Assembly: GCA_020725885.1 (NCBI GenBank)
Contig: DYEA01000008.1
Span: forward strand, 136,119-200,118
Source of the DNA: Slackia sp.
Lineage (GTDB): Bacteria; Actinomycetota; Coriobacteriia; Anaerosomatales; Anaerosomataceae
Reading direction: 5' to 3'
Length of the DNA stretch: 64,000 nucleotides
The notes under the pieces were generated by a model. The model saw nothing but the letters and a program-made list of their open reading frames with translations. It did no database searches and had not been told where the DNA came from. This document shows, piece by piece, positions 1,946-38,136 of the stretch (the stretch's first letter is position 1; every line of letters starts with the position of its first letter). A program made the position numbers and the translations under genes.

Positions 1946-2177
1946 AAACGGCAACGACGACCCTCTCGACAGGGCGAGGGTCGTCGCGGTACCACCTGTC
2001 TTCGCCCGGCGCTCGCACATCCGCCGGGCCTCGGCATCCGGGGTAACGGCCCGGACCGCCCACTTCCGGCGCCTCCCGGGAGACGCCCTGGCGGGGGACC
2101 TGCGGAGGGGTGGCTGGGCTGATGGCGCCCTCTTCCCTCACGTCCACGCATATCGGGGGCACGAAGCCCGCTTGGTG
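1946..2177 (-). promoter_or_regulatory. T-box riboswitch leader of the aminotransferase-ddl operon
   Basis: The minus-strand leader carries the T-box antiterminator sequence GGTGGTACCGCG (complement at 1985-1997), preceded by a stem III-like CCGTTACC segment and followed by a strong terminator hairpin overlapping the T-box side. This is the usual layout of a transcriptional T-box, in which uncharged tRNA stabilises the antiterminator. The stem I specifier codon could not be read with confidence, so the sensed amino acid is open. The leader ends about 35 nt before the aminotransferase ATG. Confidence 0.85.
1955..1986 (-). terminator. Conditional terminator of the T-box
   Basis: Perfect 11-bp stem (CGACGACCCTC at 1955-1965 with GAGGGTCGTCG at 1976-1986) and a 10-nt loop. 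On the minus strand it is followed by the moderately U-rich UUGCCGUUUCU. It shares bases with the end of the T-box sequence, as expected for a mutually exclusive antiterminator/terminator pair. Confidence 0.75.
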
Positions 2178-2183
2178 CGCGTA

Positions 2184-2212
2184 ACCTTACCGCGCTGACA
2201 CACGAAGGTCAA
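2184..2212 (-). promoter_or_regulatory. Promoter of the T-box leader
   Basis: On the minus strand, TTGACC (complement at 2207-2212) and TAAGGT (complement at 2184-2189) are separated by 17 bp, a good sigma-70-type fit placed just ahead of the T-box leader. Predicted start near 2177. Confidence 0.6.
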
Positions 2213-2218
2213 TCGGCG

Positions 2219-2683
2219 CTAGGAGGCCGCGAGCTTGCGAAGCGACCTGAGGCGAGCGGTCTCAGTGGCCACGTCGGGGGCTTCTGCGGCGCCGAGCAGG
2301 TGTTGCATCACCTGGTCCGCGAGCTTGATCGAGCCGAGGCAGACGAGGTCGTCGTCGTACTCGACCGAGACGCGGAACACGCCGCGCCCATCACGCCGGA
2401 AGTCCCACCGCGTCTGGCCCCGCAGCGTCCGGGGGGAGCCCGCAAGCGCCATGATCTCCATGACGACGTGCTCGAACAGGTGCGGGATCTCCGTGTCGGC
2501 GAGCTCTTCCGCGAACGGGCGGCCGGCCGGGTTGTCGCACAGGTGCTTCTCGAGCGTCGGCAGGATCTCCAGCACGCGCTCGGCGAGCCCCGGGACACTC
2601 GAAGTGCGCATCATCTGCGCTCCGTCGACGCCGACGACGACGTCGACGCGGTCGGGACAGACGGTGACTGCGTGGACCTTCAT
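2219..2683 (-). CDS. Stand-alone cyanophycin-synthetase N-domain-like protein
   Basis: A 154-residue soluble protein. The pattern VPGLAERVLEILPTLEKHLC, then FEHVVMEIMALAG, then FRVSVEYDDD matches the N-terminal domain of cyanophycin synthetase (PGf..rL..wLPtL..H.C, HvlEHv.lElq.lAG, y.VvveYe). No ATP-grasp or Mur-ligase domain follows, so it cannot make cyanophycin alone. ATG at 2681-2683 follows a GGAGGGGGAG ribosome site. It is the last gene of a three-gene operon with two small membrane proteins. Role unknown; a scaffold or binding domain is a guess. Confidence 0.65.
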   Translation of the reverse strand: MKVHAVTVCPDRVDVVVGVDGAQMMRTSSVPGLAERVLEILPTLEKHLCDNPAGRPFAEELADTEIPHLFEHVVMEIMALAGSPRTLRGQTRWDFRRDGRGVFRVSVEYDDDLVCLGSIKLADQVMQHLLGAAEAPDVATETARLRSLRKLAAS

Positions 2684-28476: not shown

Positions 28477-29244
28477 TCACTCGAGCGCGTCGAGCGCCTC
28501 CCGCATCTTCGCCTCGGTCATCTCCCCCACGACCTTCTGCTGGATCGCGCCGTCCGACGAGACGAACACGAACGTCGGCACGTACTGGACCCCCAGCGAG
28601 TTCGCGAGGTCGGAGCCCTGCTTGTCCTTCTCCACGTCGTACAGCTTGAACTCGACCTTGCCCTCGTACGCTGCCTTCAGCCGGTCGACCACCGGCGCCA
28701 TCTTGCGGCACGTGGGTCACCAGTCGGTGTAGAACTCGTACATGGCAGGCAGCCCGCTCGGGAGCGGCTGGAGCCCTTGCGCGGTCCGCGTCGCCGCGCC
28801 GGACGTCACGTCTCCGTCCCACGCGACGATGCCGTCCTTGAGGTTGTAGAGGTGCTCGAATCCGGCCTGCGCGAGCTGCTGGAACGCCCACGCGGAGCGC
28901 TCGCCGGTCGCGCAGTACAAGAGCACCGGCTTGGTCTTGTCCCACGTCTGCGCCTGCGCCACGACGGCATCCACGGGAACGTTCTCGGCGCCGGGGATGT
29001 GGGCCGCCGCGAACTCCTCGGGAGTCCGTACGTCCACGACGCGGGCGCCGCGCTTGATCAACGCTTCGGCCTGGGCGTTGGAGACGTCACCGGAAGCCGG
29101 AAGCGGGGCAAGCCTGCCCGAGAGGGCGATCGCGGCCACCGCAGCGACGGCGATGAGCACGACGCCTCCGACGAGCCACGGCGCCTTCGAGGGCGCCTTC
29201 GCCGCAGACGGCTGCGCGCCCGAGCGCTTCTTCTTGTCTGCCAT
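28477..29244 (-). CDS. Membrane-anchored rhodanese-thioredoxin fusion with in-frame UGA (probable selenocysteine)
   Basis: Read through a UGA at 28717-28719, this is a 255-residue protein. It has a Lys-rich N-terminus, one membrane anchor (residues 23-42), and a rhodanese domain (about 52-148; DVRTPEEFAAAHIPGAENV and the active loop YCATGERSAW with Cys111). A thioredoxin-like domain follows (about 165-255; MYEFYTDW-U-PTCRKMAP, then VQYVPTFVFVSSDG with the cis-Pro). Residue 176 is exactly the first cysteine of the CxxC site, giving UPTC. The frame continues for 79 sensible residues after the UGA. A candidate SECIS hairpin lies 20 nt downstream. ATG at 29242-29244 follows AGGAGCC. Alternative: an ordinary nonsense mutation of Cys. 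Confidence 0.82.
28680..28696 (-). promoter_or_regulatory. Candidate bacterial SECIS hairpin
   Basis: On the minus strand, a 6-bp stem (GCCGGU / ACCGGC) closes a 5-nt loop GGUCG. The loop starts with G and lies 26 nt past the UGA, within the distance known for bacterial SECIS elements (about 16-37 nt), which carry a G at one of the first two loop positions. Position relative to UGA and loop sequence are seen; function is inferred. Confidence 0.6.
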
Positions 29245-29388
29245 GGGTGGCTCCTGTCGCTTGGTTCTATCAGCAATATACCCCGTATGGTATCGCTTGA
29301 GCAAGGTCCGTGCCGGTCCTGGGCGCAGCACGCGGCCGCGTTCGTGGCAGAATAGCAGGCGGAGCATCACACGAGCGTTGGAGACCGC

Positions 29389-32300
29389 ATGCAGGAAGCG
29401 CGCGCTGCGTTGTGGAAGGCGCTCGCCGAGAGCGAGCCGCTTCGTATCGAGCTGCTGAGCGCACAGCGCCTGGCAGACGAGGCGCGGGCGCTCGCCGCCG
29501 TGCAATCGTGGACCGCTGCCCGCCTGGCGGGACGCACGCCCCTGCTGGACCTGCTCGACGACGCCGAAGCCGCGGTGTCGGCGACGCACCGGCGCCTGGC
29601 GCAGGACGCGCACGAGAACGTCCCCGTGTCGGTCGCCGCCGAGTGGCTCCTCGACAACCAGTACCTCGTCGAAGAGCAGATCCGCGCCGTGCGCGACGAC
29701 CTCCCTGCCGCATTCGCCGCCGAGCTCCCGCGCCTGACCGAGGGGCCGCTTGCCGGGTCGCCGCGCGCCTTCGAGGCGGTCGCGCTGCTCGTCGCAGGCA
29801 CAGACGCCAGGCTCGACCAGGACCTGCTGAGGCAGTACGTGATGGCCTATCAGGACGTCTCCCCGCTCACCATCGGGGAGCTCTGGGCCGTGCCGATCAT
29901 GCTGCGGATCGCGCTCGTGGAGAACCTCGCGCGGCTCGGGCGCCGCGTCTTGGCAGCCCACGTCGCAAGCGTCGACGCCGACGCGTGGGCGAACCGCGCG
30001 ATCGAGGCCGCCATCCGTTCGGCCGGCGAGGTCGAGCCTCTCGTGCGCGCGCTCGCTCAGGCGGTTCCGAAGCCGCCGGCGGCGTTCCTCGTCCGCTTCC
30101 TGCAGCGCCTGCGCGACCAGGACCCGTCCGTCGAGCCTGCGGTCGCGTGGGCCGACGAGCAGCTCGCCGAACTGGGGCTGTCGCTCGAAGAGCTCACGCT
30201 CGAGGAGCAACGGACGCAGGCCGCGGACCAGGTCTCCGTAGCGAACACCATCACCGCGATGCGCTTCCTGTCCGCCCTCGAGTGGCGCGACTTCTTCGAG
30301 GACTGCTGCCTGGTCGACCACGTCCTCCGGCAGGATCCCGCAGGCGTCTACGAGCGCATGGACTTCGCGTCTCGGGACCGCTACCGCAAGGCGGTGGAGG
30401 AGATCGCGAAACGCAGCCCGCTTTCCGAGGTCGAGGTGGCGGAGGCGGTCGTGAGCCACGCTCTCGCGGCCCTGGACGAGGATCCGACCGACGCCGTCGG
30501 GGCGCACGTCGGCTACTACCTGATCAGCCGAGGACGCTACCGGTTCGAGAACAGCGTCCGCTACCGCGCGAAGCTCCGCGAGCTCGTGTACCGCGGACCG
30601 TTGGCCAGCAAGGGCCTCATCTACTGGGGCCTGCTGGGCGCTCTCACGGCCGGCCTCTGCACGAGCGTGGCGTGTTTGGCCGCAAGCTTCGGGGCGGATG
30701 GGTGGCGCGCCGCTCTGCTCGCCGTTCTCGCGATCGTCCCCGCCTCGGACCTGGCGCTCAACGTCGTCAACCGCATAGCGGCGTGGCTCTGGCCGCCCAG
30801 AGTGCTTCCCAAGCTCGACTTCCGCAAGCCGCTTCTGCCAGCGCACAAGACCCTCGTGGTGATTCCCGCGCTGCTGTCCTCGCCCGAGGCGGCACAGCGG
30901 GTCGTCGACAACCTCGAAGTGGCCTACCTCGCGAACGAGGACGAGAACCTGTGGTTCGCCATCCTCGGCGACCTGCCCGTGGCTGCCGAGCGCACGACGG
31001 AACGCGACGCGGCGATCGTCGAGGCCGCCCGCAACGGCATCGCCGAGCTGAATGCGCGGCACGGCTCCGCGGGCAGACCCCCGTTCGCGCTCCTCGTCCG
31101 CGAGCGCTCGTACTCCGAGCGCGACGGCGTGTGGATGGGCTGGGAGCGCAAGCGTGGCGCGCTCGAGCAGCTCGCAGCGTTCTTGCGCGGCGCTGACGGC
31201 GGCGCCTTCTTGGTAGCGGACGGGCCTGTCGAAGCCCTCCACGACGTCACCTTCGTGATCACGCTGGACGCCGACACCGTCCTGCCGCGGGACGCGGCCC
31301 GCAAGCTGGTCTGCACGATCGCCCACCCGCTCAACCGCGCGAAGGTCGACGTTGCCCGGCGCAGGGTGGTGCGCGGCTATGGGCTGGTGCAGCCGCGCGT
31401 CGGCATGTCGCTCGAGGGCTCGATGCGCTCGCCGTTCGCCTGGCTGTACTCCGGCGCCACGGGAATCGACCCGTACGCGGGAGCAGTCTCAGACACCTAC
31501 CAAGACGTCTTCGGCGAGGGATCGTTCACTGGAAAAGGCATCTTCGAGGTCGACGTGTACAACGCCGTCCTCGCGGACCGGCTGCCGGAAAGCATCTTGC
31601 TGTCCCACGACCTGCTCGAAGGCAGCTACCTGCGCACGGCGCTTGCGAGCGACATCGAGGTGCTCGACGACCAGCCGTCGACGTATGCGTCGCACACAGC
31701 CCGGCTTCACCGCTGGGTGCGCGGCGACTGGCAGACCGTGCTGTGGCTGTTCCCGCGCGTGCCCCGCAAGGGCGGGCACGAGCGATCGCCGCTTTCCGGC
31801 CTGCACCGTTGGAAGATCCTCGACAACCTGAGGCGGAGCCTGTTCGCGCCGTCGATGGTGGCCCTGACCGCGGCGGGTGCTGCGCTTGTGCCTGGAGCCG
31901 ACTGGGGGCTGCTGGTCGCGGTGCTCGCCGTCGTCTTCTTCCCGGTGTACTTCAGCTTCGCGGACTCCCTGCTGTTCCGGCCTCGAGGCGCCGACGTCCG
32001 CGGCGACGTCCCGTCGATCGTGCGCGACTTCTGGCGGGACTCGGCGCGCGCCTTGTTCAGCCTCGCGGTGCTGCCGCACCAGGCCTGGGTGATGCTCGAC
32101 GCGATCGCGCGCGCCCTGTGGCGGCTGTTCGTCTCGAAGCGGAACCTCCTCGAATGGGAGACCGCAGCGGAGGCGGAGCGGCGTTCTGCCCGCGACCTCT
32201 CCGGACACGTCAGGCGCATGGCGCCCGCTCAGGGCGGAGCGGTCGCCTTGCTGGCCGGCGCCGCCGCCGCAGACCCGTCCTCCGCGCTCGCGCTCGCCTT

Positions 32301-35300
32301 CCTCGCCGCGCCGTGGCTCGCCGGCCCGTACGCGGCATGGCGCATGAGCCAGCCGACCGTGCCTGCGAAACCGCCGCTGGACGAAGCGATGCGGGCCTCG
32401 CTGCGCAGCGTGGCGAGACGGACCTGGCGGTTCTTCGAGACCTTCGTCACCGCCGAGGACCACTACCTCGCGCCGGACAACTTCCAGGAGGACCCTGAGC
32501 CGACGGTCGCGCACCGCACTTCCCCGACGAACATGGGGCTTCAGCTGCTCGCTACGCTCACCGCATACGACCTCGGCTACGTGACGGTCTCGGCGGCGGT
32601 CGACCGCACCTCGCGCACGCTGGCGACCATGGCCGGCCTCGAGCGGTTCCGCGGGCACTTCTACAACTGGTACGACACCCGCACGCTGCAGCCGCTCAGG
32701 CCGACGTACGTCTCGACCGTGGACAGCGGCAACCTCGCGGGCCACCTCATCGCGCTGCGCCAGGGGCTCCTCGAGGTCTCGGAGGGCCCGCTCATCCAGC
32801 CGCGCGCCCGCGACGGCGTCGCGGACACCGTGCGCGTCGCGCTCGAGGACGTGATCGAGAACCGGGCCGCGTATGGCGACGCGCGCGTCGCCGCTGCGGT
32901 GCGGACGGCGCTCGAGGAGCTCCTGCGCCGCATCGACCTCGACACGCTGCCGCGCGACCTCGGTGAGTGGCGCACGGCGCTCACGGTGTGGCGGCCGCTC
33001 GCCGAGAAGGCGGCGGCTCTCGCCGAAGGGCTCGCTCCGGCTTCCGACGCCGCGTCGTGCGACTGCGAGGCGGCACGCGACGCGGTCGCTGCCGTGGCCA
33101 GGCACATCGACGCGCTGCTCGACGAGATCGACACGATGGCCCCGTGGGCGCGCTCGCTCGCGTCCGCCCCGCCCGCCGCGCGGCGCGACGCGCTGCTCGA
33201 GCCGCTGTTCGAGCACGTGCCGAGCCTCGTCGGGCTCGCGGAGGGGCTGGACGTCGTCGAGCGCAGGCTCGAGGAGCTCGTGTCAGACGACGAAGCCGGC
33301 GAGTGGGCCGGGCGCGTGCTTGCAGACCTGCGCTCCGCGCGGCCTCGCTGCGCCCGCGTGCTCGCCGAGCTGCGGCTGTGCGCCGAGATCGCGCAGCAGA
33401 TGTGGCAGAGCATGGACTTCCGGATGCTGTTCGACGAGAGCCGCAAGGTGTTCTCGATCGGCTACAACACCGCGGAAGGACGGCTCGACCCGTCGTTCTA
33501 CGACATGCTGGCGAGCGAGTGCCGCCTCGCGAGCTTCGTCGCCATCGCGAAGGGCGACGTGCCCCAGGAGCACTGGTTCCGCCTCGGCAGGCCGATCACG
33601 GAGACCGGCGTCGGCAAAGCGCTCGTGAGCTGGAGCGCGAGCATGTTCGAGTACCTCATGCCGCTCCTGGTCATGCGGAGCTACCCGGGAACCCTGCTGG
33701 ACATCACGTATCGGTCGGTGGTCCGCAGGCAGATCCAGTACGGACGGCAGCGCGGCGTGCCGTGGGGCGTCTCGGAGTCCGCGTTCGCCGCGCGCGACGC
33801 GAACCTCACCTACCAGTACCAGGCGTTCGGCGTGCCCGGCCTGGGGCTGAAGCGCGGCCTGTCCGACGACGTGGTCGTAGCGCCGTACGCGACGCTGCTC
33901 GCACTGCTCGTGGACCCGGTGGCGGCGTCCCAGAACCTGGTCGCGCTCGCCGACCAGGGAGCGCGAGGCCGTTACGGATACTACGAGGCGATCGACTACA
34001 CCCCTGGCCGCGTCCCAGCAGGGCGCGAGCGCGCGATCGTGCGCGCGTACATGGCCCACCACCAGGGCATGGGGCTCGTCGCGCTCGGCAACGTGCTCGA
34101 AGACGGAGCCATGCAGGAGCGGTTCCACCGCGACCCCGTCGTCCAGACCGCCGAGCTGCTGCTGCAGGAGCGCACGCCGCGCCGCGTGCAGCTCGCGAAG
34201 CCGCACGTCGAGGAAGTGGAGTTCGTCCGTTCTGTGCGCGAGGTGCCGCCGCCCGTCACCCGGTCGTACCCGACGCCGCACACGCCCGTCCCGGCGACGC
34301 ACTTCCTGTCGAACGGCTCGTACTCCGTCATGGTCACCAACGCGGGAGGCGGCTACTCGCGCTGGCGCGACCGCACGGTGACCCGCTACCGCGAGGACCT
34401 CACCCGCGACTGCTGGGGCTTCTTCGTCTACCTCAAAGACGTCGAGAGCAAGAAGGCCTGGTCCGCGGCCTATCAGCCGACGTGCACCGAGCCGGACGAC
34501 TACCACGTGGTGTTCTCGCCGGACAAGGCCGAGTTCCGGCGCCTCGACGACGGCATCGAGACGCACACCGAGATCGTGGTCTCGCCGGAAGACGACGTCG
34601 AAGTGCGGCGGCTCACGGTCACGAACCGGCGCCGCGAGCCTGCGTACCTCGAGGTGACCTCGTACGCCGAGATCACCCTCGCTCCGCGAGGCGCCGACCA
34701 GGCCCATCGGGCGTTCAGCAACCTCTTCGTCGAGACCGAGGCGCTCGACGAGCTCGGCGCGCTGCTGTTCTCTCGCCGGCCTCGCTCCGCCGAGGAGCCG
34801 CGCGTCTGGGCCGTGCACGCGATCGCGTGCGACCTCGGCACGCGGTGCACCTGGTCGTACGAGACCGACCGGGCCGCGTTCCTCGGACGGCTCGGCACGC
34901 CGGCGAATGCCCGGGCGATCGCTGGAGACGGCCGTCTCACGGGCACGACCGGCCCGGTGCTCGATCCGATCTGCGCGATCCGCCAGACGCTGGCCCTGGA
35001 GCCTGGGCAGTCGGCCCGGCTCGCCATCTCGCTCGGAGCGGCGGACAGCCGCGAGCAGGCGGTCGCGTACGCCGAGAAGTACCGCGACATCCGCAGCGCG
35101 CAGCGGGCGCTCGACCTGGCGTGGTCGACGAGCCAGATCGAGCTCAGGGACCTCGGGATCACCCCGCAAGAGGCGGTGGTCTACCAGCGGTTGGCCTCGC
35201 GGCTGCTGCTCACTGACCCGTACTCGCGGCTCAAGGCGTACACCGAGTCGGAGAACCGGCTGCCGATGTCGGCGCTGTGGTCCATCGGCATCTCCGGCGA

Positions 35301-38136
35301 CTACCCGATCCTCCTCGTGGAGATCGAGCGGCTCGAAGACACCCCGCTGGTACGGCAGGCGCTCCTCGCGCACCAGTACTGGCGCAGCCGCGGCTTCGAG
35401 TGCGACCTGGTGATCCTCAACACGAAGCCGAGCGCGTACGCATCGGCCCTCGACGGGCGGCTGCGTGCTCTGGTGCGGACCGGCCATGCGCTGCAGATGC
35501 TCGACCGGCCTGCAGGCGTCCACCTGCGCGCCGCCGATCAGATCGCCCCTGAGATCGTCGAGGCGCTCCGGAGCGTCGCGCGCGCCGTCCTCAAGGCGGA
35601 GGCGGGCCCCATCGTCTTGCAGCTCGACCAACGCGCGGAGCGGCCCGCCCCTCCGAACACTCTGGCGCCGACGTCCCAGCCCATCGCCGACCCGCTCCCC
35701 CCGTTCGAGCGCCCTGCTTTGCTGTTCGACAACGGCTACGGCGGCTTCGACCCTGCCACCGGCGAGTACGTCGTGGTGCTCGAGCCCGGCGCGACGACGC
35801 CGGCTCCGTGGATCAACGTGCTCGCGAACCCGGAGTTCGGGTCGTACGTGTCCGAGGCAGGCATCGGTTGCACCTGGGCGCTGAACAGCCACGAGAACCG
35901 CCTGACGACCTGGAACAACGATCCCGTCAGCGACGGCACCGGCGAGGTCTTCTACCTGCGCGACGACGACACCGGCGAGTTTTGGAGCCCGACCCCGGCT
36001 CCGGCCCGTGCCGACGCGCCCTACGTCGTCCGCCACGCACCGGGCTGCACCGTCTTCGAGCACGCGAGCCACGGGCTCAAGCAGCGCGTGACGTACTTCG
36101 TCTCCGCCGACAAGCCGGCCCGCGTCGCCCGCGTCCGGATCGAGAACGTCTCGGACCGGGAGCGCCGGATCTCGTTGTTCCACGTCGTCGAATGGAGCCT
36201 CGGCGACTCCCGGAGCAAAGCGCAGCAGCGCGTCGTGACCTGGTGGGACGAGCACGCGAGCGCGCTGATGGCGCACAACTGGTTCAACCTCGACTTCCCG
36301 GGGCGCCCCGCGTTCCTGGCCGCCGATCAGGAGATCACGTCGTTCACCGCCGACCGTACCGAGTTCCTCGGCCGCAACGGGCACCCTGCCTCGCCCGCCG
36401 CCATGCGGTACGAGCGGCTCGCCGGCACCACCGGCCGCTTCCTGGACAACTGCGGCGCGCTGCACCGCTCGCTCACGCTCGCCCCCGGCGCACACGCGGA
36501 GGTGTCGTTCTTCCTCGGACAGACAGAGACCGTCGAGGCCGCGCACGCGCTCATCCACGAACTGCGCGCGCCTGGCGCCGTCGAGCGCGAGCTCGAGGCC
36601 GCTCGTGCGATGTGGCGCGGGCTGCTCGGCACGCTCGAGATCCGCACGCCGGACGAGCTCCTGGACAGGCTCGTGAACGGCCCTGTGCTGTACCAGGCGC
36701 TCGCGTGCCGCTTCTGGGGACGCACCGCGCTCTACCAGTCAAGCGGCGCGTTCGGCTTCCGCGACCAGCTCCAGGATTGCCTCGCTCTGCTTTACGTCCG
36801 GCCCGACCTCGTGCGCGAGCACATCGTCGAGGCGTCGCGTCGCCAGTTCCCAGAGGGCGACGTCTTGCACTGGTGGCAGCCGATGAGCGGCCGGGGCGTG
36901 CGGACGCGGTTCGTGGACGACCGCCTGTGGCTGCCGCTGGTCGTGGCGGAGTACGTGAACGCGACCGGCGACGAGAGCGTGCTCGACGTCGAGACGCCGT
37001 TCGTGGAAGGCCCGCCGGTCCCCGAGGGCCGCGAGGACCTCTACTTCGAGCCGCAGCCGTCAGTGCAGGTCGCAACCGTCTACGAGCACTGCGTCAGCGC
37101 GATCGAGGCGAGCGCGGCCGTCGGCCCGCACGGCCTGCCGCTCATGGGGGGCGGCGACTGGAACGACGGCATGAACCGGGTGGGCATCGGCGGGACCGGC
37201 GAGAGCGTGTGGATGGCGTGGTTCCTCGACGTCGTGCTCCGCTCGTTCGCGGAGGTCGCAGAGCGGCGAGGCGACGCCGAGCACGCGGAGCGCTGGCGCG
37301 CCCGGGCCGAGGCGCTCATCGCGGCGGTCGAGCGCGAGGCGTGGGACGGCGCGTGGTACCGCCGCGCGTACTTCGACGACGGGACGCCCCTCGGCAGCCG
37401 CTCCTCGGAGGAGTGCAAGATCGACGCCATCGCCCAGGCGTGGGCGGCCGTCTCGGGCTCGGGCGACCCTGCGCGCGTCCAGCGTGCGCTCGAAAGCGTC
37501 GAGGAGCGCCTGATCCGCTGGGACGACGGGCTCGTGGCGCTGCTTGCGCCGCCGTTCGACCGCATGGCGCACGATCCCGGCTACATCAAGGGGTACGTGC
37601 CTGGCGTGCGCGAGAACGGCGGGCAGTACACGCACGCCGCCGTGTGGGTCGCGCTCGCGTACGCGGCGATGGGGGACGGCGACGAGGCGGTGGCTATCCT
37701 CGACCTGATCAACCCGCTGTCCCATGCCGCGGACGCCGCCTCGGTGGAGCGGTACAAGGTGGAGCCGTACGCGCTGGCCGCCGACGTGTACTCCGCCGAA
37801 CCGCACGTCGGGCGCGGCGGCTGGACTTGGTACACCGGCTCGGCGGCCTGGTACTACCGCGTGGCGGTGCGGGACATCTGCGGCCTGCACCTCGTGGCCC
37901 GCGACGGGAAGCGCTACCTCGCGTTCGAGCCGTGCGTGCCGAAGTCGTGGCCGGCGTGGTCGATCCGCTACCGGTTCGGTTCGAGCACCTACGAGATCGC
38001 GTTCGAGAACCCACGCGGTGTGAACCGCGGCGTCGAGCGCGTGGAGTGCGACGGTGAAGCAGTGGCCGACGGCCTGGTCCCGCTCGTCGACGACGGCCGC
38101 GCGCACCTCGTGCGCGTCGTCATGCTCGGCGGATAG
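29389..38136 (+). CDS. Cyclic beta-1,2-glucan synthase (GT84-glucoamylase-GH94), giant
   Basis: 2915 residues, close to the roughly 2800-residue NdvB/ChvB class. It makes and cyclises beta-1,2-glucan from UDP-glucose. The order is: N-terminal region (1-410) with two membrane helices near 410-460; GT84 glycosyltransferase (about 470-860; LDADTVLPRD, QPRVGMSLEG, GKGIFEVDVYN, LHRWVRGDWQ); further helices; glucoamylase-like domain (about 990-1560; YNTAEGRLDPSFYDMLASEC, HHQGMGLVALGN); and GH94 phosphorylase-like C-terminal half (about 1600-2915; GGDWNDGMNRVG, YIKGYVPGVRENGGQYTHA). ATG at 29389 has GGAG. Stand-alone; no exporter gene (ndvA) adjoins. Confidence 0.92.
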   Translation: MQEARAALWKALAESEPLRIELLSAQRLADEARALAAVQSWTAARLAGRTPLLDLLDDAEAAVSATHRRLAQDAHENVPVSVAAEWLLDNQYLVEEQIRAVRDDLPAAFAAELPRLTEGPLAGSPRAFEAVALLVAGTDARLDQDLLRQYVMAYQDVSPLTIGELWAVPIMLRIALVENLARLGRRVLAAHVASVDADAWANRAIEAAIRSAGEVEPLVRALAQAVPKPPAAFLVRFLQRLRDQDPSVEPAVAWADEQLAELGLSLEELTLEEQRTQAADQVSVANTITAMRFLSALEWRDFFEDCCLVDHVLRQDPAGVYERMDFASRDRYRKAVEEIAKRSPLSEVEVAEAVVSHALAALDEDPTDAVGAHVGYYLISRGRYRFENSVRYRAKLRELVYRGPLASKGLIYWGLLGALTAGLCTSVACLAASFGADGWRAALLAVLAIVPASDLALNVVNRIAAWLWPPRVLPKLDFRKPLLPAHKTLVVIPALLSSPEAAQRVVDNLEVAYLANEDENLWFAILGDLPVAAERTTERDAAIVEAARNGIAELNARHGSAGRPPFALLVRERSYSERDGVWMGWERKRGALEQLAAFLRGADGGAFLVADGPVEALHDVTFVITLDADTVLPRDAARKLVCTIAHPLNRAKVDVARRRVVRGYGLVQPRVGMSLEGSMRSPFAWLYSGATGIDPYAGAVSDTYQDVFGEGSFTGKGIFEVDVYNAVLADRLPESILLSHDLLEGSYLRTALASDIEVLDDQPSTYASHTARLHRWVRGDWQTVLWLFPRVPRKGGHERSPLSGLHRWKILDNLRRSLFAPSMVALTAAGAALVPGADWGLLVAVLAVVFFPVYFSFADSLLFRPRGADVRGDVPSIVRDFWRDSARALFSLAVLPHQAWVMLDAIARALWRLFVSKRNLLEWETAAEAERRSARDLSGHVRRMAPAQGGAVALLAGAAAADPSSALALAFLAAPWLAGPYAAWRMSQPTVPAKPPLDEAMRASLRSVARRTWRFFETFVTAEDHYLAPDNFQEDPEPTVAHRTSPTNMGLQLLATLTAYDLGYVTVSAAVDRTSRTLATMAGLERFRGHFYNWYDTRTLQPLRPTYVSTVDSGNLAGHLIALRQGLLEVSEGPLIQPRARDGVADTVRVALEDVIENRAAYGDARVAAAVRTALEELLRRIDLDTLPRDLGEWRTALTVWRPLAEKAAALAEGLAPASDAASCDCEAARDAVAAVARHIDALLDEIDTMAPWARSLASAPPAARRDALLEPLFEHVPSLVGLAEGLDVVERRLEELVSDDEAGEWAGRVLADLRSARPRCARVLAELRLCAEIAQQMWQSMDFRMLFDESRKVFSIGYNTAEGRLDPSFYDMLASECRLASFVAIAKGDVPQEHWFRLGRPITETGVGKALVSWSASMFEYLMPLLVMRSYPGTLLDITYRSVVRRQIQYGRQRGVPWGVSESAFAARDANLTYQYQAFGVPGLGLKRGLSDDVVVAPYATLLALLVDPVAASQNLVALADQGARGRYGYYEAIDYTPGRVPAGRERAIVRAYMAHHQGMGLVALGNVLEDGAMQERFHRDPVVQTAELLLQERTPRRVQLAKPHVEEVEFVRSVREVPPPVTRSYPTPHTPVPATHFLSNGSYSVMVTNAGGGYSRWRDRTVTRYREDLTRDCWGFFVYLKDVESKKAWSAAYQPTCTEPDDYHVVFSPDKAEFRRLDDGIETHTEIVVSPEDDVEVRRLTVTNRRREPAYLEVTSYAEITLAPRGADQAHRAFSNLFVETEALDELGALLFSRRPRSAEEPRVWAVHAIACDLGTRCTWSYETDRAAFLGRLGTPANARAIAGDGRLTGTTGPVLDPICAIRQTLALEPGQSARLAISLGAADSREQAVAYAEKYRDIRSAQRALDLAWSTSQIELRDLGITPQEAVVYQRLASRLLLTDPYSRLKAYTESENRLPMSALWSIGISGDYPILLVEIERLEDTPLVRQALLAHQYWRSRGFECDLVILNTKPSAYASALDGRLRALVRTGHALQMLDRPAGVHLRAADQIAPEIVEALRSVARAVLKAEAGPIVLQLDQRAERPAPPNTLAPTSQPIADPLPPFERPALLFDNGYGGFDPATGEYVVVLEPGATTPAPWINVLANPEFGSYVSEAGIGCTWALNSHENRLTTWNNDPVSDGTGEVFYLRDDDTGEFWSPTPAPARADAPYVVRHAPGCTVFEHASHGLKQRVTYFVSADKPARVARVRIENVSDRERRISLFHVVEWSLGDSRSKAQQRVVTWWDEHASALMAHNWFNLDFPGRPAFLAADQEITSFTADRTEFLGRNGHPASPAAMRYERLAGTTGRFLDNCGALHRSLTLAPGAHAEVSFFLGQTETVEAAHALIHELRAPGAVERELEAARAMWRGLLGTLEIRTPDELLDRLVNGPVLYQALACRFWGRTALYQSSGAFGFRDQLQDCLALLYVRPDLVREHIVEASRRQFPEGDVLHWWQPMSGRGVRTRFVDDRLWLPLVVAEYVNATGDESVLDVETPFVEGPPVPEGREDLYFEPQPSVQVATVYEHCVSAIEASAAVGPHGLPLMGGGDWNDGMNRVGIGGTGESVWMAWFLDVVLRSFAEVAERRGDAEHAERWRARAEALIAAVEREAWDGAWYRRAYFDDGTPLGSRSSEECKIDAIAQAWAAVSGSGDPARVQRALESVEERLIRWDDGLVALLAPPFDRMAHDPGYIKGYVPGVRENGGQYTHAAVWVALAYAAMGDGDEAVAILDLINPLSHAADAASVERYKVEPYALAADVYSAEPHVGRGGWTWYTGSAAWYYRVAVRDICGLHLVARDGKRYLAFEPCVPKSWPAWSIRYRFGSSTYEIAFENPRGVNRGVERVECDGEAVADGLVPLVDDGRAHLVRVVMLGG

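Follow-up and report, generated by a model that had tools for sequence, protein, structure and literature searches.

A predicted membrane-anchored rhodanese–selenocysteine-thioredoxin fusion protein conserved in an order of subsurface actinobacteria

A TGA codon inside an otherwise open reading frame may end the protein or may be read as an amino acid, and a gene in a 64,000-nucleotide stretch of Slackia sp. DNA (contig DYEA01000008.1; hereafter the window) raises the question of which of the two holds and what the product would do. The frame lies on the minus strand (28477..29244), starts with an ATG at 29244, is preceded by a Shine-Dalgarno motif AGGAG (29251..29255, minus strand, 6 nt before the ATG, as read from the sequence) and ends with a TGA at 28477-28479; read to this end it would encode a rhodanese–selenocysteine (Sec, U)-thioredoxin fusion of 255 amino acids. 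Its single in-frame interruption is a TGA at codon 176 (28717..28719, minus strand), the first active-site residue of a U-P-T-C motif within TDW-U-PTC-RKM, with 79 residues beyond. A preliminary description had reported that the frame is broken only by this TGA, that the TGA sits at the first Cys site of a thioredoxin CxxC and that 79 normal residues follow to a proper end, and reading the frame bears out all three points. A chance open reading frame (28717-31326), much longer than the gene, ends at the same TGA as the Sec176 codon.

We searched 61 genomes of the family and the order, which the nearest named relative suggests is Anaerosomatales (OPB41) within the Coriobacteriia. Most of them have a full-length match broken by exactly one TGA, and a class-wide search gave 53 copies of nearly full length, each with one TGA, spread over 51 of the order's 69 genomes. 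Among 47 aligned full-length copies from the same order, comprising the window's own and relatives of about 40-77% identity, the position of codon 176 is TGA in all 47. Because the TGA falls at exactly the same codon in every copy, the interruption is not due to chance, in agreement with the earlier argument that a chance mutation on a residue replaceable by Sec is unlikely. None of the orthologues detected in the order has Cys at the Sec176 position. Among proteins of the order, a comparable layout without the TGA was seen only in L108, L109 and partly L110, which were rejected as Cys versions because they are distant paralogues whose active sites are altered or missing; G181 was rejected as a Cys-version fusion, as its two adjacent genes are not fused. 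In close pairs, dN/dS is 0-0.34 after the TGA and 0.04-0.24 in the rhodanese part. These purifying values past the TGA indicate that the downstream protein is translated and under selection; the decay after the stop that the preliminary description had named as evidence against Sec is not seen in the homologues.

Downstream of the UGA lies a hairpin of the bacterial SECIS type, GCCGGU-GGUCG-ACCGGC (28680..28696, minus strand), inside the interval 28640-28720 where the preliminary description had proposed to look for one. The hairpin begins 20 nt past the TGA and conforms to the bacterial consensus quoted in PMC13188914, with a 6-bp stem, a 5-nt loop starting with GG that begins after 26 nt from the UGA, and an MFE of -11.8 kcal/mol. 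All six pairs are complete in 47 of 47 copies, which share the general form GCC-X-GU GGUCG AC-Y-GGC; the central X-Y pair occurs as U-A, C-G or G-C, and covariation extends to other pairs. In an alignment that includes stand-alone relatives, both partners have changed in five of the six pairs, and covariation scores 0.372, whereas shuffles score 0.146 and slid registers no more than 0.166. The hairpin pairing fixes the codon choice, so that the Pro and Arg/Gly codons involved are found in just three combinations, CCT+AGG (20 copies), CCC+GGG (8) and CCG+CGG (2); in four window genes, CCT makes up about 12% of the Pro codons and AGG about 6% of the Arg codons.

The genome also carries all four Sec genes that the preliminary description had proposed to search for. 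These are selA (520 bits), the adjoining selB (378 bits), tRNA-Sec (selC; 74 bits, cut-off 47) and selD (378 bits), and they sit on a different contig from the fusion gene. Thus the lack of selB or selC, also named in advance as evidence against Sec, does not apply to this genome. The SelD of the same genome is itself a selenoprotein, with a TGA in its STKSGUAAK motif (L040, 1501-2418, minus strand). Across the order, neither selA nor selB was found in G040 and G045, and the fusion is absent there too; four genomes (G023, G044, G060 and G116) have selB but no fusion. The genomes G012 (L020) and G015 (L024), 96% and 98% complete, have the fusion gene with an intact TGA and hairpin, and selA, selB and tRNA-Sec were not found in them. 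A likely cause is missing assembly sequence, because the sel genes are clustered and both assemblies are multi-contig.

From these sequence comparisons, the gene almost certainly encodes a full-length selenoprotein with Sec at residue 176, and the earlier reading of a probable selenoprotein with Sec at the thioredoxin redox Cys is supported by the invariant UGA, the SECIS, the selection and the sel genes together. Standard annotation would truncate the protein at Trp175 or lose the catalytic half, in dozens of genomes. That the TGA is a true stop, leaving either a pseudogene or a membrane-anchored rhodanese alone, is very improbable: G012 and G015 do retain the gene though neither yielded the Sec machinery genes, but the conserved TGA, the covarying hairpin, the purifying selection past the TGA and the full Sec machinery in the genome all argue against it. 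Still less credible is decoding as another residue, for example Trp through code reassignment or a suppressor tRNA. The open frame agrees with it and nothing further does, whereas the fusion gene itself, 11 of the 47 copies and neighbouring genes terminate with TGA, and the site is the redox Cys of a thioredoxin in a genome with Sec genes and a SECIS. A sequencing error or assembly artefact hiding a TGC or TGT can be dismissed, for single-base differences commonly cause isolated in-frame stops but the identical TGA is found in dozens of independent genomes.

The preliminary description had also predicted a membrane-anchored rhodanese joined to a Sec-thioredoxin. Pfam finds both domains, and the AlphaFold model consists of an N-terminal helix, a rhodanese fold and a thioredoxin fold, consistent with this prediction; the pTM of the model is 0.55, too low for judging the distance between Cys111 and Sec176. 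The putative membrane helix (residues 25-43; 29116..29172, minus strand) is modeled with low local confidence and is preceded by positive charges, and a lipobox scan found a lipobox in its place in 10 of 30 relatives, about one third. In view of this helix with its preceding charges, or the lipobox in a third of the relatives, both catalytic domains are probably exposed on the outside of the cytoplasmic membrane. The rhodanese domain (residues 57-143; 28816..29076, minus strand) has a GlpE-type fold and matches PF00581 at 70.5 bits (cut-off 22.2; E = 1.7e-19). Its active-site Cys111 (28912..28914, minus strand), in the six-residue loop CATGER, is Cys in 46 of 47 copies. The thioredoxin domain (residues 168-252; 28489..28743, minus strand) matches PF00085 above the cut-off (E = 4.4e-15), its Foldseek matches are thioredoxins, and it contains the UxxC motif, an invariant P223 in the cis-Pro loop, and a resolving Cys179 (28708..28710, minus strand) encoded by TGC in 30 of 30. 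A PHROGs search gave a thioredoxin match only, and no solved structure spanning both domains was among the structure-search matches.

Conserved in 51 of its 69 genomes, the fusion architecture extends across this order of anaerobic subsurface bacteria, and Sec use is thus a nearly fixed trait in an order of subsurface actinobacteria. No full-length fusion turned up in 130 Coriobacteriia sampled from outside the order, and a 396-genome sample of the phylum yielded none beyond the window's genus. Many genomes of the order have stand-alone Sec-thioredoxins of the same family, with TGA, and so do sampled genomes from other classes of the phylum. This wider family (L151-L169, e.g. L151:2144-2431 and L162:2059-2358) is lipoprotein or membrane-anchored, with UPxC or UGAC and the same SECIS type, and neither of two stand-alone proteins tested passed an NCBIfam cut-off. 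In L156 (about 2124-2399, minus strand) and L167, an N-terminal zinc-ribbon and membrane helix precede a C-terminal Sec-thioredoxin, so that this Sec domain has further fusion partners.

How does the fusion relate to known systems? A 2026 inventory of selenoproteins (PMC13188914) lists thioredoxin with UxxC, rhodanese forms 1-4 and, as form 5, TsoB, a rhodanese/DsbD-like protein with two Sec residues. A rhodanese fused to a Sec-thioredoxin is absent from that list, an absence that does not prove the lack of an earlier description; a literature search for such a fusion or for OPB41 selenoproteins returned nothing relevant. The Sec-thioredoxin of the inventory (PF00085, UxxC), whose biochemistry is cited there to Kim et al. 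2015, shares with our protein a Sec that replaces the Cys at the first active-site position, a resolving Cys at +3 and a SECIS directly downstream, but the fusion protein is membrane-anchored and its thioredoxin stands behind a rhodanese domain. The single-domain rhodaneses GlpE and PspE likewise have a Cys in a CxxGxR loop, and PspE is extracytoplasmic like the probable location of the fusion; GlpE is reported to interact with thioredoxin in a reference cited by another source. Unlike both of these, the rhodanese of the fusion has its own Sec-carrying thioredoxin covalently attached. Rhodanese-like selenoproteins of forms 1-4 (e.g. NF041203) also have a rhodanese domain, but their motifs are UxxS, UxxG and CxU, whereas the fusion keeps Cys in the rhodanese and has Sec in the thioredoxin. 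TsoB (NF045694, a rhodanese/DsbD fusion-like protein), attributed to Haft and Tolstoy 2025 as cited in PMC13188914, combines a rhodanese with a thioredoxin-fold part in one selenoprotein; its model has 572 positions and a UxxxxU motif with two Sec, different from the single Sec in the UxxC of the fusion. In G181 and L111, for example, a rhodanese gene and trxA stand in tandem, which places both domains side by side, but as separate genes with a classical WCGPC thioredoxin and no Sec.

No NCBIfam model scored above its cut-off for the fusion protein or three relatives tested. Rejected assignments include classical TrxA (TIGR01068 equivalog, 52.2 bits against 96.8; the protein is thioredoxin-like only), the CxU rhodanese-related (seleno)protein NF041203 (37 against 115; the rhodanese has Cys and no Sec), TsoB (34.9 against 805, with only part of the model's C-terminal end matched) and NF045521, rhoda_near_glyco (50 against 145). 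Sec-thioredoxins and Sec-rhodaneses are known separately, and what is new relative to the inventory is the fusion of domains of their kind with Sec in the thioredoxin, by which the selenoproteome gains a domain architecture. The phrase "unusual thiol or sulfur-transfer enzyme" in the preliminary description stands only in part: both halves come from families already associated with selenoproteins, in this order the fusion is commonplace, and the enzymatic role is one that we infer.

SelB and Sec-tRNA almost certainly read UGA 176 owing to the hairpin that follows it, giving a product with an N-terminal anchor, a GlpE/PspE-like rhodanese and a C-terminal thioredoxin with Sec-Pro-Thr-Cys. For the function we propose that thiosulfate, polysulfide or persulfides would supply sulfane sulfur to Cys111 of the rhodanese, which would hold it as a persulfide. 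The fused Sec-thioredoxin would attack this persulfide, releasing sulfide and leaving a Sec176-Cys179 selenenylsulfide; a membrane protein of the CcdA/DsbD type would then re-reduce the selenenylsulfide with cytoplasmic electrons. The fusion would make the persulfide reduction intramolecular, and Sec would speed it up and give better protection from over-oxidation. Several observations are consistent with such a relay. In G043 the rhodanese and the Sec-thioredoxin are adjacent separate frames; thioredoxin is recorded as a sulfur acceptor and partner of rhodaneses in work cited on GlpE and TST; and the genome has one clear CcdA-like candidate reductant, a DsbD_TM protein of 247 aa. On the other side, the conserved neighbor of the gene is glucan-synthase-like and not a sulfur gene. 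One fusion (L011, 622-1320, minus strand) has Tyr in place of the rhodanese Cys, so the relay would not be universal. Judged from domain identity and family chemistry, reduction of the Cys111 persulfide by the Sec-thioredoxin has about an even chance of being what the protein does, and for the proposal as a whole, a selenoprotein with an outside-facing rhodanese-to-Sec-thioredoxin sulfur relay, the balance tips slightly in favor.

The role of the relay can be narrowed by comparing two cultured species of the order. One respires sulfur and thiosulfate, which speaks in favor of the relay, and the other, the order's cultured Fe(III) reducer, cannot reduce either of them (PMC9686372). As the fusion is widespread in an order that includes this Fe(III) reducer, respiration itself is an unlikely role, and housekeeping of the sulfane-sulfur or thiol balance is the likelier one. 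The protein also provides a naturally occurring single chain in which to test the long-held idea that rhodaneses have thioredoxin as their physiological partner, because with Cys kept in the rhodanese and Sec in the thioredoxin the two half-reactions are separable by single mutations.

The strongest competitor of the sulfur relay, less probable but a serious one, is that the selenoprotein is a general extracytoplasmic thiol-disulfide reductase or a peroxidase-type enzyme, with surface proteins or peroxides as targets of the Sec-thioredoxin and a docking or sensing part for the rhodanese. Anchored Sec-thioredoxins that stand alone without a rhodanese, in the order and in other sampled classes, would suit this role, as would the different partner in the zinc-ribbon/membrane proteins and the one fusion lacking the rhodanese Cys, and CcdA could supply electrons to any such enzyme. 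A mere docking domain, however, would not need the rhodanese Cys that 46 of 47 fusions keep. Much weaker is a function in selenium handling, where the rhodanese would carry a perselenide and the Sec-thioredoxin would aid selenium supply. Rhodanese binds selenium as perselenide in vitro according to earlier work, as cited, but the sel genes are unlinked to the fusion, the protein is probably anchored outside the cell and nothing specific speaks for this function, which we consider improbable.

No sulfur genes were found next to the fusion gene. Divergent from it across a short gap is a gene (29389..38136, plus strand) for a 2915-aa protein with GH94 and glucoamylase domains (Pfam), which resembles cyclic beta-1,2-glucan synthase. 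Since the two genes share their intergenic region, joint regulation is suggested. Taking this further, an order-wide selenium-dependent cell-surface sulfane-sulfur reductase whose expression or role is tied to the divergent envelope GH94 gene is a tentative idea that we regard as rather doubtful. A GH94/glucoamylase-domain gene of about 2900 aa occupies this divergent position in 33 of 34 loci, L126 being the exception, and the genes on the other side of the fusion differ among loci.
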